Source of the DNA: Luteibacter aegosomatissinici
Lineage (GTDB): Bacteria; Pseudomonadota; Gammaproteobacteria; Xanthomonadales; Rhodanobacteraceae
NCBI RefSeq assembly: GCF_023078495.1
Contig: NZ_CP095742.1
Span: forward strand, 868,001-932,000
Direction of reading: 5' to 3'
Length of the DNA: 64,000 bases
Shown here in pieces: positions 5,754 to 53,656 of the stretch; positions within the stretch are counted from its first letter, which is position 1; the number at the start of each line of letters is the position of its first letter. A model generated the notes under the pieces. The model ran no database searches and was not told where the DNA came from. It saw nothing but the letters and a program-made list of their open reading frames with translations. A program made the position numbers and the translations under genes.

Positions 5754-8700
5754 ATGTCGCAGGTGCAGTACACGCCCTCACGGGGCGTGCGGGTTCGTGC
5801 GCGCGCCTCGCGCATGCTGGTCGTTCTCCTGACGATGGCGCTGCCACTCGGTGTAGCCCACGCGCAGACCACGGTGAACCCCGAGGATGAGTACAAGAAG
5901 CTCATCAAGGTCAACGAAGATATCCAGCCACTTGGCGATACACCCTTCGGTGAGCGCATAGGGCTTTACGACGGTAGCCTGTCGTTCCGCCAGGTGGATA
6001 TTACGGTGCCCGGTACCGGCCCGACCATTAGCGTCGGCCGTGTATTTACCATGCCTTCGTTCGGCGATCGTTTCGATCTGCAGAATCGCGCGTTTGGCGA
6101 ATGGGATCTTGACCTGCCGCAGATCGACACGGTCACCGCGAACCAGAACAACGTCAAGGGCTGGGTTGTCGATACCGACGCGAAGACCAATATCTGCACG
6201 AGCTTCGGCTCGCCACCACCTGTAGCGCCACCGGCGGGCGATACAAAGCGCAGCGACTGGGAAACCAGCTCGTGGTGGAACGGCTACCAGCTGAACGTAC
6301 CAGGGGTCGGTAGCCAGGAGCTGCTCCATCGTGACACCACCAGCACGCCGACGCCGGGAGTAGCCGGGCTCACGTACCCCATAATCACCAAGCAAAACTG
6401 GGTCGTCGGCTGCCTGAGCCAGGCAAGCAATGACGCGACCACGCAGGCATTCCTGGCGGTTGCGCCCGACGGCACCAAGTACTGGCTGGATCATCTTTCT
6501 TACCGGTACATGCCCGGCATGACGCGGCCGCTTGGTTCATCGCCGGTGGCGCTGGCAGCTAGCCCGTTCCATGTGCTTGCCGCGACCACTGATAACCTGA
6601 CTCGTCGCCAGGGGCGCATGCTGGCCACCCGGATCGAGGACCGCTTCGGTAATTGGATTGCCTATGCGTACAGCGGCGACAACGTGACCGACATCACGGC
6701 AAGCGATGGTCGCCACGTCAGCTTTGCTTACATTCCGAACACCTCGCGAATCAGCAGCATCACCGTACAGGGCGGTGCGGCGGGGCAGCGCACCTGGAGC
6801 TACGGCTACACGCATTCCGCTCAGACGCTTGTGGATTCGCTGACGAGCGTCACTCAGCCGGACGGTTCCGCGTGGACGTTGAACATGGATGGCCTCAACG
6901 GTGCCTTCGTCGACATGCGCGGTAGCCCGAGCACCTGCGATGCGCTCGGAACGCTAGCCGCGACTTACCCCTCCTTCACCGGCCAGATGACTCACCCCTC
7001 TGGCCTGACAGGATCTTTCACCGTGCACCCCGTGCGACGCGGGCGATCCAACGTGTATCGTGTCTGTGAGAATGGTCCGAACCTCGATACGACCAATCCA
7101 ACCGCGACCGGGACGTGGTCCGATAATCCCGATGCGTCCTACAGCATGGCGATCCAGCAGGAGCAGCGATCCGGCGCCGGCATAGGTACGCAAACGTGGA
7201 GCTACGCCTACTCGCCCTCCAATGAGAGTTGGAAGCAGAACTGCAACAGCACATGCACGGGCACGGTGTGGACGACCGTGACCTATCCGGATGGTCACGC
7301 CGAGCGGAGCACGTTTAGCAACCGCTACGACTGGACCGAAAGCCAGTTGCTTACGGAAGAGACCTTCGATGGCGCGGCTGATACCACCAGTCGGCGGAAG
7401 CTGGTGCAATACGGGTATGTCGCCCCAGCGTCCGATCCCCGCTCGGGCGCCTATCCCAAGCTACTCGGCTACACACTCGCGCCGCGCGTCAACACCGACC
7501 AGGTGAATCTGCTGGCGCCCCTGGGGTCGCGCGTCACTTACGTCGACAATGATGCCTTCAGCTGGACTGTCACGGCGTTCGATAACTGGGCACGGCCTCA
7601 TCAGGTCCAGCGCTACAGCAGCACGAGCTACTGCCAGCCAGACGCCAAGATCTACCAGAGTGCGCCGTTCTGCGTCACCGAGCAGAGCACCTACCAGGAC
7701 GATTATGCGCACTGGGTGCTCGGCCTTCCCCTGCAGTCGGATAACCTGACTGCGGGCGAAACCGTCAGCCGCAACGTGTACGACCCGAACAGCCTGACGC
7801 TTTCCGAGCGATACCGCTTCGGCAACAAGGTGATGGGCTACGCCTTCAACGCACAAGGGCAGCTCGCGTCATTCACCGATGGTAATGGGCACACGACCTC
7901 CATTCCGTCGTATGCGTTTGGCATTCCCAGCCAGATCAATTACCCGGACGGTACCGGCCAGACCGTATCCGTCGATGGCTTTGGCCAGGTCACGGCCATC
8001 GCCGACCAGACCGGTGCCGTCACCCAATATGGCTACGACGCCATCGGCCGGCTCGCGCGCATCGACTACCCTGCCGGCGATGCCGTGGCCTGGGCTCCGA
8101 AGACTTTCCAGTACAGCTACATCGGCGACGCACGAGGGCTCGGGGGGGCACATTGGGTGCGCGTGGATACGCAGGGAAGCTGGAGCCGACGCACCGATTA
8201 CGACGTGATGATGCGCCCCGTGGCGCTCGGCACCTCCGAGGCGGGTACCGGCGCGGGCTATGTGTCTTCGCGGACGGATTACGACTGGGAGGGCCGCAAG
8301 ACGTTCCAGTCGTACCCCGTAGATGGTGCGCCTGACCTCAACGGTATGAACCTGGGCGTGTCAACGCGGTACGACGTGCTCGGTCGACCGACCCAGCAGT
8401 TCCAGCACACCGAGTTGGGCGATCTGCTGACCTCAACTAGCTATCCGCAGGGCATCGGGCGCCAGGTCACCGACCCGAAGGGCAACGTCACCACCAGTCA
8501 TTTCGAGGCGTTTGATGCTCCTGCCTACGACGACGTCGTGAGTGTGCAGGCACCCGAGGGGGTGGTGCAGACCATTCAGCGCGATACATACGGCAATCCG
8601 GTGATGATCACCCAGGGTGGGCTCGGCCAGTCGGTTAGCAAGACGCTTACCTACGATGGCCAGCACCGCCTGTGTCGCACCTGGGAGCCCGAGTCCGGTA

Positions 8701-11198
8701 GCGAGATCACGGCCTACGATGCTGCGGACAACGTGGCATGGAGCGTATCCGGTGCCTCGTTCAACGACACCGGTTGTGGCCAGGACCAGGTAACCGATGC
8801 GCTGAAAACCCAGCGCGGCTACGACGCGATGAACCGGCTGACGTCAGTCATTTACCCGGCGGGTACCGATCCGAGCACCTTCACCTACGACCCGCGGGGC
8901 AACCCTGCGACCGCCACGGCCGGTATGGTCAGCTGGACCTTTGGCCGCAACCGACTGGGCCTGCTGACCAGCGAGGTGCTCTCGGTGGATGGTTGGAGCT
9001 GGGGCATCGGCTATGGCTATGGCAACAGGGCCGCGCTCAGTTCGGTGACGTATCCGGACGGCGCCAGCGTTGCTTATGCGCCGAACGGGCTCATGCAGCC
9101 GACGCAAGCGGGCAGCTATGCGACGGGCGTCAGCTATTACCCGGATGGCGACATAAGCGCGTACACACTGGGTAACGGTGCAATCTATTCCGCGGACAAG
9201 AATGCACGAAATCTTCTGAGCAACTTTACGTTCGGCAAGGGTGGCGTGCCCCAGGTGAGTGAGGACCTGGCCTACGATGCCAATGGCAACGTTAGTGCGA
9301 TCACGGATGAATCCCCCGCGAACCAGCGCAGCAAGACGATGAGTTACGACGGCCTCAATCGGCTGGTGTCCGCTACCGCGGGCCAGCTCTGGGGAACGGA
9401 GAGCTATACCTACGACACGCTCAACAACATTCGGACCCTCACCAACGGCACCGGCGCGAATACGTATAACTACAACGGCAGTAACCAGCTGACCTCGATC
9501 ACGAATGCCGGCACCCAAGTGCATGGTTTCCAGTACGACGGGCGTGGTAACACGATCAGCAAGGATGGCCAGGCCTTGTCGTTCGACCTGGCGAACCGCC
9601 TTACCTCGATTCCCGGTAAAGGCGTGTACACCTATGACGCGGCGGGACGCCGGGTCAAAAAGGTGACGCCCGATGGCACGACTTACTACGGCTACAACGC
9701 AGCGGGCCAGCTGATGTGGGAATACGATGCCGCCACGACGAACGGCACCAGCTACATCTACCTCGGCAAGAAACTGGTCGCCAGCAAGAAAGGCACTATC
9801 TCCAAAGTCATCGGCAACATTGATGGCATCGCAGCCGACAACAACAGTATTAATGGCTGGGCATGCTCGACTGGCCTGTCGCAGTCAATCGATGTCCATC
9901 TCTACGTGGGCGGACCGGCTGGTTCAGGCGCATTCCTGCGCGCTGTAACGGCCAACCTCGCTAGCGAGTCGGCCATCCAGCAGGCGTGTCATGGCAGCGG
10001 ATCGGCTTACCGGTTCTCGATTCCACTGCTGGAAGCCGACAAGGTGACGTACTACGGTCAGGCGCTTTACGTTCACGGTATCTCGCCCGTGGGCGGGACG
10101 AATGACCTCGTTACGGGCTCCGGCCTGTACGCCATGCCGCGTTCGCCTAACGCACCACCCGCGCCCGCGCCGGCGACGGCAGCCGCCAACGCCGACAAAT
10201 CGGCCGTTACCGTGACCTGGACGGCAGCCGCCCGCGCGGCTCGTTACGAGGTTTGGCAGGTGCATAACGGCGCCTGGGCCTCGCTGTACACAGGCGGGGC
10301 ACTCAGTGCGGTTGCATCGACGCCGGCGGACGGTCCGTATGTGTACGAAGTCCGCGCATGCAACGATAGCGGATGCAGTGTTTACGCCGAGACTGCGCAG
10401 CTCAATCTCCTGCATGTTCCGGCGAAGGTGGCAGCCATTTCGGCTCCCGCTACGTCGACAGGCAGCGTTCCCGTGAGCTGGAGCGCCACGACCTACGCGA
10501 CGTCTTACCAGGTCGATCATTACGACAGCAGCTGGTCCACGGTCTACAACGGTCCGGCCACGTCGGCAACGTTCAACGAGTCTCATTCGGGAGCGTGGTT
10601 CTATCGGGTCCGCGCATGTAATGCGAACGGATGTGGCGACTACGTGGCCAGTGGTGGCACGACCATCCTTCTACCACCTTCGCCGACCCCGACCTTGTCA
10701 GGCGGTGGCACGACGAATTCCGGCGCGTATGGCGTGAGCTGGAGCGGGTCTACCGATGCGGCCAGCTACAACCTTGTCGAAAGTGCCAACGGTGGCGGTT
10801 GGACTGGCATTCAGAACAACGCAGCGCAGAGCTGGTCCATTGGCGATAGGCCCGACGGCACCTACGCCTACATGGTGCAGGCATGCAATGCGACGGCGTG
10901 TACCGGCTGGAGCAACCAGGTGGCGATCACCGTGGCGCACATTCCTGCCGTACCCACCAACATTGGCATGAATCACGCCCAGAAGGGAAAGCTGGAAACC
11001 TACACGCTGCAATGGGCGGCGGAGGCGTACGCAACGAGCTACCAGATCATCCGTTACCCGGCCGGGGTCACCGTCTATAGCGGGAGCGGCACGACCTTCC
11101 AGGTCGAGAGCGGCTTCGAACCGTATGACCTCAAGTACACCTATGCGATTCGTGCTTGTAGCGCGGTGGGTTGCTCTGCTTATTCGAGGACGCTGTGA
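5754..11198 (+). CDS. secreted YD/RHS-repeat shell protein with C-terminal FN3-like domains
   Basis: An 1814-residue protein. It has a Sec signal peptide after a basic N-terminus (cleavage near AHAQ, about residue 38). From about residue 260 to 1345 it is filled with YD/RHS repeats (forms such as YGYDAIGRL, YDGLNRLVSA, YTYDAAGRRVKK). The repeats stop at YIYLGKKLVASKKG, just where an ordinary RHS protein would enter its core domain. Instead there is a separate domain (about 1352-1460: INGWACSTG, LYVGGPAGSG, LYVHGISPVGG) and four FN3-like modules (about 1465-1550, 1554-1638, 1645-1727, 1730-1814), each ending in a RACNxxGC-type strand. The stop TGA overlaps the next ATG by one base, so the two genes are coupled. 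The inferred role is an exported encapsulating shell for the toxin encoded downstream. Confidence 0.85.
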   Translation: MSQVQYTPSRGVRVRARASRMLVVLLTMALPLGVAHAQTTVNPEDEYKKLIKVNEDIQPLGDTPFGERIGLYDGSLSFRQVDITVPGTGPTISVGRVFTMPSFGDRFDLQNRAFGEWDLDLPQIDTVTANQNNVKGWVVDTDAKTNICTSFGSPPPVAPPAGDTKRSDWETSSWWNGYQLNVPGVGSQELLHRDTTSTPTPGVAGLTYPIITKQNWVVGCLSQASNDATTQAFLAVAPDGTKYWLDHLSYRYMPGMTRPLGSSPVALAASPFHVLAATTDNLTRRQGRMLATRIEDRFGNWIAYAYSGDNVTDITASDGRHVSFAYIPNTSRISSITVQGGAAGQRTWSYGYTHSAQTLVDSLTSVTQPDGSAWTLNMDGLNGAFVDMRGSPSTCDALGTLAATYPSFTGQMTHPSGLTGSFTVHPVRRGRSNVYRVCENGPNLDTTNPTATGTWSDNPDASYSMAIQQEQRSGAGIGTQTWSYAYSPSNESWKQNCNSTCTGTVWTTVTYPDGHAERSTFSNRYDWTESQLLTEETFDGAADTTSRRKLVQYGYVAPASDPRSGAYPKLLGYTLAPRVNTDQVNLLAPLGSRVTYVDNDAFSWTVTAFDNWARPHQVQRYSSTSYCQPDAKIYQSAPFCVTEQSTYQDDYAHWVLGLPLQSDNLTAGETVSRNVYDPNSLTLSERYRFGNKVMGYAFNAQGQLASFTDGNGHTTSIPSYAFGIPSQINYPDGTGQTVSVDGFGQVTAIADQTGAVTQYGYDAIGRLARIDYPAGDAVAWAPKTFQYSYIGDARGLGGAHWVRVDTQGSWSRRTDYDVMMRPVALGTSEAGTGAGYVSSRTDYDWEGRKTFQSYPVDGAPDLNGMNLGVSTRYDVLGRPTQQFQHTELGDLLTSTSYPQGIGRQVTDPKGNVTTSHFEAFDAPAYDDVVSVQAPEGVVQTIQRDTYGNPVMITQGGLGQSVSKTLTYDGQHRLCRTWEPESGSEITAYDAADNVAWSVSGASFNDTGCGQDQVTDALKTQRGYDAMNRLTSVIYPAGTDPSTFTYDPRGNPATATAGMVSWTFGRNRLGLLTSEVLSVDGWSWGIGYGYGNRAALSSVTYPDGASVAYAPNGLMQPTQAGSYATGVSYYPDGDISAYTLGNGAIYSADKNARNLLSNFTFGKGGVPQVSEDLAYDANGNVSAITDESPANQRSKTMSYDGLNRLVSATAGQLWGTESYTYDTLNNIRTLTNGTGANTYNYNGSNQLTSITNAGTQVHGFQYDGRGNTISKDGQALSFDLANRLTSIPGKGVYTYDAAGRRVKKVTPDGTTYYGYNAAGQLMWEYDAATTNGTSYIYLGKKLVASKKGTISKVIGNIDGIAADNNSINGWACSTGLSQSIDVHLYVGGPAGSGAFLRAVTANLASESAIQQACHGSGSAYRFSIPLLEADKVTYYGQALYVHGISPVGGTNDLVTGSGLYAMPRSPNAPPAPAPATAAANADKSAVTVTWTAAARAARYEVWQVHNGAWASLYTGGALSAVASTPADGPYVYEVRACNDSGCSVYAETAQLNLLHVPAKVAAISAPATSTGSVPVSWSATTYATSYQVDHYDSSWSTVYNGPATSATFNESHSGAWFYRVRACNANGCGDYVASGGTTILLPPSPTPTLSGGGTTNSGAYGVSWSGSTDAASYNLVESANGGGWTGIQNNAAQSWSIGDRPDGTYAYMVQACNATACTGWSNQVAITVAHIPAVPTNIGMNHAQKGKLETYTLQWAAEAYATSYQIIRYPAGVTVYSGSGTTFQVESGFEPYDLKYTYAIRACSAVGCSAYSRTL

Positions 11199-12157
11199 TG
11201 AATAGAACAACTGCGACAAAAGCCATTGCGATTCTGCTTGTTCTGCTTTTTTCCTTTAATAGTGCGGCCGCCTCAGACGCAGTTACGTACTACTACACTG
11301 ATCAGCAAGGCACAGTTCTTTCTACAGCGGATAGCTCTGGGAACATTCTGAGTACCTCGGACTATCGTCCCTACGGCCCGCTTGCCCGAGGAACGCCAGA
11401 AGATGGTCCGGGTTACACCGGACACGTGAACGACGCGGATACGGATCTCGTGTATATGCAAGCACGTTATTACGATCCGAGCACAGGAAGGTTCTTGTCG
11501 GTTGACCCCGCGATTGAGGTCACGGGTGATATTCTGCATTTCGGTCGGTTCACGTATACCAGCAACAATCCGATAAGGATGGTGGATCCGGATGGGGCGC
11601 AGGAGGTAGACGCCGAGGAGCTAGATATTGAGACGCGCGAACAGATGGCGCGTGTCAACCCTCCACTTGGTCCAAACATGGCTTTACCCGGCTATGTCGC
11701 GCCGATCACCCCGGCTCCGGGCTTTATTCCGGAAACTTTTACGGATCATGTCGTCGCGCAGAACCTTGGCCTTGAGCCGACGCCGGTAGTCGGGGAGAAC
11801 CTTCCTTCATCTAGGTCAGAACTTACTAAGACGTATGAGGTTTACACAAAAACCAACCCGGAGACCGGCGAGGTCTACACGGGACGAACCAGTGGAACCA
11901 ATGGACCCGAACAGAACGTTGCGAGGCGGGATTCGTCGCATCACATGACGGCGAACGGATTCGGCCCAGCTGTTTTACAGTACACGTCGACTAATAGCGA
12001 CGCGATCCGCGGTCAGGAACAAATCCTGATAGAAAGCAACGGAGGCGCGCGACGAGGTGGCGGAAGCTCTGGGAACGAAATTAACGGCGTAAGCCCCCAG
12101 AACAATAAAATACAGGTGTACATTAACGCGGCGCGATCCGAGTTTGGGGGAGGGTAG
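11198..12157 (+). CDS. secreted RHS core protein with GIY-YIG-like nuclease toxin tip
   Basis: A 319-residue protein with its own signal peptide (about 1-27). Residues 28-130 are an RHS-repeat-associated core: YYYTDQQGTVLSTAD, YRPYGPL, GYTGHVND, MQARYYDPSTGRFLSVDP and the terminal NNPIRMVDPDG. After a linker, residues 213-304 resemble a GIY-YIG (URI) nuclease: YEVY with Y216, VYTG with Y227, ARRD with R243/R244, H248/H249, E274 in GQEQ, and N296 in NEINGV. This order matches the family's catalytic Tyr, Tyr, Arg, His, Glu and Asn. The core matches what is missing from the end of the preceding gene. Codon use looks more AT-rich than in the neighbours, suggesting acquisition of the tip. The nuclease assignment is inferred from motif order only. 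Confidence 0.75.
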   Translation: MNRTTATKAIAILLVLLFSFNSAAASDAVTYYYTDQQGTVLSTADSSGNILSTSDYRPYGPLARGTPEDGPGYTGHVNDADTDLVYMQARYYDPSTGRFLSVDPAIEVTGDILHFGRFTYTSNNPIRMVDPDGAQEVDAEELDIETREQMARVNPPLGPNMALPGYVAPITPAPGFIPETFTDHVVAQNLGLEPTPVVGENLPSSRSELTKTYEVYTKTNPETGEVYTGRTSGTNGPEQNVARRDSSHHMTANGFGPAVLQYTSTNSDAIRGQEQILIESNGGARRGGGSSGNEINGVSPQNNKIQVYINAARSEFGGG

Positions 12158-12322
12158 ATCGGCGGAAGTTTTCTCGGTGCATTGCGTCCTTCGTCATGGG
12201 AAACGCGTGTCGTACGCGATAGAATCATTGGCATTGCCGAGCGTGAGGCAAGTTGCTGATTGAATTCCCGTCCGGGTTTCACGATACGCAAGTTCTAACC
12301 TGAACCAGTAAGCGAGGCAGAC

Positions 12323-12709
12323 GTGAGCATCGTTAAAGAACTGATAGATTCGGCGAACGCCGATATTGCTCTCTTGCGCGTGCGCGATACACAAGGAGAT
12401 GTGTTTGCGATTCGTCGGCCCGTCGATTTTACGTTTCGATCTGGCGACGAACGGCAAGCCGCCTCGGTCGCGGGATTTCTTTCTGATTATCGATTTGCGG
12501 AGACTGCAATATCGGCCGTCGACGGCGAGTTCCGTATTGTTGCGACGATCGCTATGCCTGTGGAGCAGCAAGAGATCCTTTCGGTTTCTGGTTTTATGCA
12601 ATGCATCGCAGCGTTGTTTACTGTGACCTACGACGGTTGGGGTGCGCCGATTAGGAGCAAACCCGTGGATACGATAGCGCCGATCGCTGATGGCAACACG
12701 ACTAAGTAG
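12323..12709 (+). CDS. RraB-like protein, candidate immunity protein
   Basis: A 128-residue acidic protein starting at GTG with a GAGG ribosome-binding site six bases upstream. It lacks a signal peptide and is predicted cytoplasmic. The C-terminal YDGWGAP, together with the spacing of VDFTF, AASVAGFLSDYRF and the helix before YDGWG, resembles the RraB (ribonuclease E inhibitor B) fold. It lies directly after the RHS toxin gene and before a terminator, the standard position of an immunity gene. I infer that it neutralises the nuclease tip rather than RNase E. Base composition is low-GC like that of the toxin tip. Confidence 0.65.
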   Translation: MSIVKELIDSANADIALLRVRDTQGDVFAIRRPVDFTFRSGDERQAASVAGFLSDYRFAETAISAVDGEFRIVATIAMPVEQQEILSVSGFMQCIAALFTVTYDGWGAPIRSKPVDTIAPIADGNTTK

Positions 12710-53580: not shown

Positions 53581-53656
53581 GCCGGCATAGCTCAGTTGGT
53601 AGAGCAACCGCCTTGTAAGCGGTAGGTCCCCAGTTCGAATCCGGGTGCCGGCACCA
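53581..53656 (+). tRNA. tRNA-Thr (anticodon UGU)
   Basis: A 76-base cloverleaf. The acceptor GCCGGCA pairs with TGCCGGC, the D-arm is GCTC-AGTTGGTA-GAGC, and the anticodon loop is CTTGTAA with anticodon TGT. The T-loop is TTCGAAT, and CCA is encoded. One mismatch (A-C) is present in the T-stem. A possible -10 (TAAACT) lies at 53565-53570. Confidence 0.95.

Follow-up and report, generated by a model that had tools for sequence, protein, structure and literature searches.

The locus described here raises the question of how an RHS-type polymorphic toxin could be assembled when the repeat shell is encoded by one gene and the sealing plug with its toxin tip by the next, both with signal-peptide-like starts, and which protein would then guard the producer. 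The window, meaning the whole stretch of DNA that was analysed, comprises 64,000 nucleotides of Luteibacter aegosomatissinici (NZ_CP095742.1, positions 868,001 to 932,000), and the three genes of the locus lie within 5754-12709 of it in one common direction on the + strand (Table 1). The stop codon of gene 1 is overlapped by the ATG of gene 2 (TGATG) and gene 3 starts 165 bases past gene 2; judged from this spacing, a single transcript is likely for genes 1-3, and a promoter and terminator scan of the locus gave no more matches than shuffled sequences did. The only Rfam match in the window was a tRNA gene at 53581-53653.

Table 1. Features of the split RHS locus (positions in the window)
Feature	Positions	Strand	Remarks
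Gene 1, RHS/YD-repeat shell, predicted secreted	5754..11198	+	1814 aa; ten RHS_repeat stretches, YD_repeat_2x
RHS shell part of gene 1, to residue 1344 (SYIYLGKKLVAS)	5868..9785	+	start approximate, past the signal-peptide-like stretch
C-terminal tail of gene 1 with Fn3-like repeats	9786..11195	+	PF08329, three stretches; one-gene relative without the tail
Gene 2, cartridge (signal peptide, RHS core/plug, toxin tip)	11198..12157	+	319 aa
Signal-peptide-like N-terminus of gene 2, about residues 1-25	11198..11272	+	best 11-residue hydropathy 3.18
RHS core / C-terminal plug with D103 and D130-P-D-G133, autoprotease-type motif	11282..11596	+	TIGR03696
Toxin tip, Tox-URI1/GIY-YIG-like	11810..12154	+	Y216, Y227-T-G, R243, R271-G-Q-E274, N296
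Gap, the place of Imm26 in relatives; possible 14-residue remnant, unproven	12158..12322	+	
Gene 3, RraB-family, candidate (second) immunity protein	12323..12709	+	128 aa, GTG start; PF06877

The initial annotation had read these genes as a split RHS polymorphic toxin, and this was borne out by the domains as well as by the recurrence of the architecture described below. Gene 1 matched PF05593 RHS_repeat in ten stretches (Pfam, E 1.9e-32) and has an N-terminus that is signal-peptide-like by eye, while the RHS-associated core that precedes the toxin sits on the second gene and not on the repeat carrier (gene 2 residues 56-133, Rhs_assc_core TIGR03696, E 3.4e-20); residues 28-133 of gene 2 also matched 1049-1151 of 8h8a. 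The AxA-like end of the gene 2 signal and its cleavage point were placed by eye. The paired DP..DPxG autoprotease motif is present in gene 2 (D103 and D130-P-D-G133), with cleavage itself a prediction, and the tip that follows is 115 residues long.

A comparison with the congener G005, which has a one-gene version of 1632 aa, located the split. The one-gene protein is 55% identical to residues 20-1373 of gene 1 and, in the part that follows, 60% identical to residues 17-138 of gene 2, and the junction of the two can be placed to some 10 residues, between 1343 and 1352 of the one-gene protein; thus the split takes away nothing recognisable, and it adds a tail to gene 1 and a signal peptide to gene 2. 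Since the one-gene relative runs gene 1 directly into the gene 2 core, the split falls cleanly just before the last strands and the C-terminal plug. In the structure of Rhs1, this C-terminal plug is an aspartyl-protease domain that sits within one end of the barrel and closes it, and cleavage takes place after the second of two DPLGL motifs (accessible part of PMC8636562). By sequence likeness, gene 2 encodes the part equivalent to the barrel-closing plug of Rhs1. In G005, locus L113 (G005 C1 414000-429000) has a one-gene RHS toxin and behind it two signal-less core fragments, like classical orphan cassettes.

The tip and the immunity candidate had also been described as low in GC relative to the shell. 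They are indeed lower (shell 0.620, gene 2 0.543, gene 3 0.532, window 0.646), but the drop spans all of gene 2, core included, with third-position GC of 0.77 in the RHS part of the shell, 0.54 in signal plus core, 0.59 in the tip and 0.55 in gene 3. Across the 24 shell-linked loci introduced below, mean third-position GC goes from 0.763 in the shell to 0.668 in the core and 0.535 in the tip.

We consider it reasonably probable that the locus encodes a two-piece RHS polymorphic toxin, in which plug and nuclease form a cartridge that is exported apart from the shell and then closes it, and in which the RraB-family protein of gene 3 protects the producer. Shell and small cartridge would be made by coupled translation, with a signal peptide on each to export it by itself, and the cartridge plug, a putative aspartyl autoprotease, would then fit into the shell at its open end and close the barrel from outside the cytoplasm. 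Self-cleavage after D130-P-D-G133 would leave the tip, a predicted nuclease of the Tox-URI1 type (GIY-YIG), inside the shell as cargo, for delivery that may be into other cells by analogy with RHS toxins in general. The producer, which the RraB-family protein would guard, might also run less risk if the nuclease stays separate until it is exported.

Loci of this kind recur, and a wider split-cartridge pattern beyond this locus is worth testing. The core query gave matches in 43 of 61 genomes (the own genome and 60 relatives), and we read a non-random sample of 60 regions, chosen from core matches mostly in short open frames, together with three split loci of the own genome, which made 63 loci with 68 core ORFs of 250-700 residues. 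With signal peptides called by a rule of our own on hydropathy, charge and AxA and not by SignalP, a signal-peptide-like stretch stood directly before the core in 61 of the 68 cartridge ORFs of this chosen sample, and five of the seven signal-less ORFs had repeat sequence ahead of the core, like classical orphan cassettes. The 61 signal-bearing cartridges were found behind a long shell ORF of at least 1300 residues (24, counting L096, whose shell has lost its N-terminal part to a stop), behind remnants or parts of a shell (8), or with no shell-like ORF in the upstream sequence read, median 7.9 kb (29). Two of these 29 have a shell downstream, namely L017 of the own genome and the second cartridge of L116, behind which lies the shell of the first cartridge. 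In L017 (own genome 2941000-2956000) the order is reversed, with cartridge, lipoprotein-like gene and shell following one another on one strand.

D103-, D130- and G133-like residues are kept in 24/24 shell-linked cartridges; among the shell-less ones, D103-like residues are kept in 29/29 and D130- and G133-like residues in 28/29, the exception being L120, which stops early and looks as if it had a frameshift. Of the 24 linked loci, 16 have an in-frame ATG or GTG no more than 5 bases from the shell stop. A sample of genomes from the phylum had the core in 34 of 299, and 37 of the 54 places listed were in frames of at least 700 residues. Two short-frame cases read outside the order, L170 and L171 from other families of the class, are likewise split RHS loci; in each the cartridge begins with what by eye resembles a signal peptide, and its gene shares four bases with the repeat or Fn3-like gene ahead of it.

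The expectation of a variable tip among relatives held, with the tip of the window in 4 of 41 genomes, own included, two of these four with fragments only; the congeners have one full-length homolog and two more as fragments. Elsewhere we found one homolog in Flavivirga and, on plasmids, four of full or almost full length, besides three fragments and a weak match. The own genome was the only one of 369 with the tip in the class sample, four scans of the viral collection gave one partial relative, and phage records gave none.

The neighbours of these tips bear on immunity. Imm26 is a listed partner of Tox-URI1, as are Imm14, Imm44 and Imm51 (accessible part of PMC3482391), and its position beside Tox-URI1 tips is an association and not a strict criterion. 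It directly follows six of the seven full-length tips and does not follow that of the window. A query with the G018 Imm26 found none in the own genome, where the best match had E 0.57; as a positive control it found its kin in G005 at 2e-47, and also G018; the G005 protein lies below the Pfam Imm26 cut-off (17.4 vs 23.3 bits) and was assigned to Imm26 because it is 55% identical to that of G018. In the gap after gene 2, where a remnant of Imm26 may lie by sequence resemblance, tblastn matched a 14- to 32-residue stretch of Imm26 with a best E of 0.002 against the 176-base subject. The best profile score for such a remnant was equalled by 48 of 2000 shuffles and its DNA alignment was no better than shuffles, and neither was taken as support. 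Among three fragmentary tips, Imm26 is kept in G005, which also keeps RraB, and on an Aliiroseovarius plasmid, and the flanking sequence examined for the G014 fragment held neither Imm26 nor RraB. At L176 and L111, displaced tip fragments still have Imm26 directly behind them, as if a newer cassette had pushed the older one downstream.

Gene 3 matched PF06877 RraB (Pfam, 37.1 bits vs cut-off 23.3, E 5e-9); it had no match in NCBIfam, nor to Imm14, Imm44 or Imm51 in the Pfam scan. An RraB-family gene lies near three of the seven full-length tips, namely those of the window, G018 and V. campbellii, in the order tip-Imm26-RraB in G018 and V. campbellii (L101 and L058); the window alone among full-length tips has RraB without Imm26. 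With Imm26 absent, the RraB-family protein is the only immunity candidate left at the locus, and we infer from its position that it may protect the producer. A plausible though less likely alternative is that gene 3 is a bystander, either a regulator of RNA turnover or an orphan. RraB is named for ribonuclease regulation, four of the seven full-length tips have no RraB in the flanking sequence examined, and the gene 3 query, which found matches in 7 of 61 genomes, also found RraB-like genes in G001, G015 (C6) and G049 with no recognised toxin within about 1.5 kb on each side; what speaks against a bystander is that the gene travels with tip and Imm26 in hosts as far apart as this genus and the carrier of a Vibrio plasmid, at 44% identity. 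If RraB-family immunity to a nuclease toxin is true, it would be a second role for a family of ribonuclease control, and since no Imm26 was found in the window, the locus lends itself to asking if RraB is enough by itself.

Whether cartridges depend on shells was gauged from how far the two occur together. Over the own genome and 22 congeners, a shell match was present in 16 of 17 core-bearing and in 0 of 6 core-less genomes (Fisher 7e-5), a test that is suggestive only, since the genomes are related, with kinship uncorrected, and the counts include one-gene RHS genes and fragments. The sole core-bearing genome without a shell match, G008, has an Fn3-like fragment adjoining its cartridge. Further, shell and core distances correlate over 24 linked pairs (r 0.38, 0/2000 permutations), which fits partner matching or shared descent. 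Both results, together with retention of the entire plug, weigh against the view that the cartridges are autonomous secreted toxins, with the core a mere remnant or a small domain for self-processing, and with some separate job, such as adhesion, for the shell. That view draws on the 29 signal-bearing cartridges without an upstream shell and on the cartridge upstream of its shell in L017, and we hold it unlikely. The same 29 of 61 cartridges also count against the two-piece reading, as they show that an adjoining shell is not obligatory.

In some single-contig genomes core matches outnumber shell matches: 7 (one broken, one partial) vs 2 in G014, 3 vs 1 in G018 and 3 vs 2 in G004, and the own genome has three split pairs. 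A bolder form of the two-piece reading, which we put forward tentatively and rather doubt, is a multi-cartridge RHS weapon in which one or a few exported shells would be loaded in trans, with the RraB-family protein as the sole immunity here to the GIY-YIG toxin. If true, many plug-toxin cartridges across the genome would be loaded outside the cytoplasm, and a mixed arsenal could arise without recombination.

For the tip, the initial annotation had named Y216, Y227, R243, R244, H248, H249, E274 and N296 in an order expected for GIY-YIG nucleases, and all eight residues are at these positions. Indeed, the tip holds the ordered elements Y, YxG, R, [RK]xxE and N of the Tox-URI1 motif (motif table in the accessible part of PMC3482391), and the seven full-length tips, that of the window included, have the same motif order in outline. 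The profile search that had been suggested gave no Pfam match to GIY-YIG for the tip and its 6 homologs (7/7 tips), and there was no GIY-YIG or toxin model in Pfam or NCBIfam for the tip itself. Single Pfam matches of other members of the tip alignment to unrelated families were at chance level, and the tip profile against sequences of solved structures gave one irrelevant match (E 1.8). In hhalign against 28 PF01541 domains (28 of 30 GIY-YIG loci from a PF01541 search, two being left out for stops) the tip scored 20.95 with a probability of 11.6%, and the best of 200 column shuffles, 18.23, was below the real score, as were 200/200; the alignment is collinear and pairs the tyrosines, YTG, arginine and RxxE region with their GIY-YIG counterparts. 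AlphaFold2 with a three-sequence alignment gave pLDDT of 37 for the tip and 35 for the cartridge, too low to interpret, and the tip model had the strand-strand-helix order only.

The GIY-YIG reading thus stands on the Tox-URI1 motif, the above-shuffle profile match and the Imm26 next to 6/7 full-length tips, and falls short in the Pfam search. A toxin of unrelated fold, its likeness to the motif a coincidence, would account for the absent Pfam match, the low hhalign probability and the uninterpretable models, but it is improbable given all five motif elements in order, 0/200 shuffles that score as well and the Imm26 partner. We conclude that the tip is likely a Tox-URI1-type GIY-YIG nuclease, with the activity predicted.

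Decay or sequencing error in one long RHS gene, as hinted by broken shells such as the interrupted one of L096 and that of L101 in G018, which lies beside the closest tip homolog in two overlapping frames and therefore may be broken, can be dismissed almost entirely as the origin of the split, since gene 2 starts with a signal peptide where the one-gene relative has none, 24 loci combine a long shell ORF with a signal-bearing cartridge, two more split loci occur in other families of the class, and this recurrence rules out a frame-split artefact.

One-gene RHS toxins of the TseI and WapA type follow the same plan of shell, core, variable tip and immunity, and the TcB-TcC shell of Tc toxins is made of two polypeptides, like the locus here, with TcC supplying a large part of it. 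Compared with one-gene RHS toxins (T6SS Rhs1, TseI, WapA type), plug and tip here have a gene to themselves, which opens with a signal-peptide-like stretch, and in their place the shell ends in an Fn3-like tail; in contrast to TcC, the second piece here consists of some 110 core residues and the tip and bears an export signal. Rhs1 shares the YD-repeat shell, the C-terminal aspartyl-protease core, the variable tip and the downstream immunity gene (accessible part of PMC8636562), and Tc/ABC toxins, among them the system with orphan TcC in Yersinia entomophaga, package cytotoxic components from separate loci in a single complex (accessible part of PMC11067744). The enterobacterial orphan rhs-CT modules are likewise extra core-plus-toxin fragments that broaden the repertoire, are without translation start and export signals and need recombination (accessible part of PMC3967940), whereas the 29 shell-less cartridges here are signal-peptide-like at the start and 28 of them have the full core motif. 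For Tox-URI1/Imm26, the likeness lies in the motif Y, YxG, R, [RK]xxE, N, the RHS carrier and the Imm26 of homologs, and the difference in that the locus here has no Imm26 and keeps an RraB-family gene, a family with no mention in the accessible part of PMC3482391. Tdi5a/Tdi5b offer a case of two unrelated immunity proteins for one nuclease toxin, although that toxin has a beta-beta-alpha-metal fold, and the accessible part of PMC13392607 likewise has no mention of RraB. Neither signal-bearing split cartridges nor RraB immunity were described in the literature that we searched, with subscription papers outside it. In known RHS toxins the sealing plug is in the same chain and extra cassettes of the enterobacterial type are silent until recombined; separately exported cartridges that outnumber shells in some genomes would, if true, mean that shells can be sealed from outside and that alternative toxins can be loaded.

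The tips that these cartridges carry are highly varied. The 68 clustered tips (67 from cartridges plus the one from the one-gene relative, L120 being too short to include) fell into 42 clusters, of which 28 were singletons, and a conserved carrier with variable tips was thus found among them. For ten picked cartridges, NCBIfam placed the core domain above cut-off in 10/10 and a tip model above cut-off in 0/10, and Pfam gave a toxin-type domain above cut-off in four (ParB_N, GH-E, SLT, Tox-REase-7). By eye, the tip of the L112 cartridge has another GIY-YIG-like pattern (YLYQKL...KFGIT), with no Pfam match. The shell-less cartridges L080, L082, L084, L092, L093 and L107 have tips that look, by eye, like HExxH-type metallopeptidases, and a library scan that took in all of them but L092 gave weak matches only, for L080 and L107.
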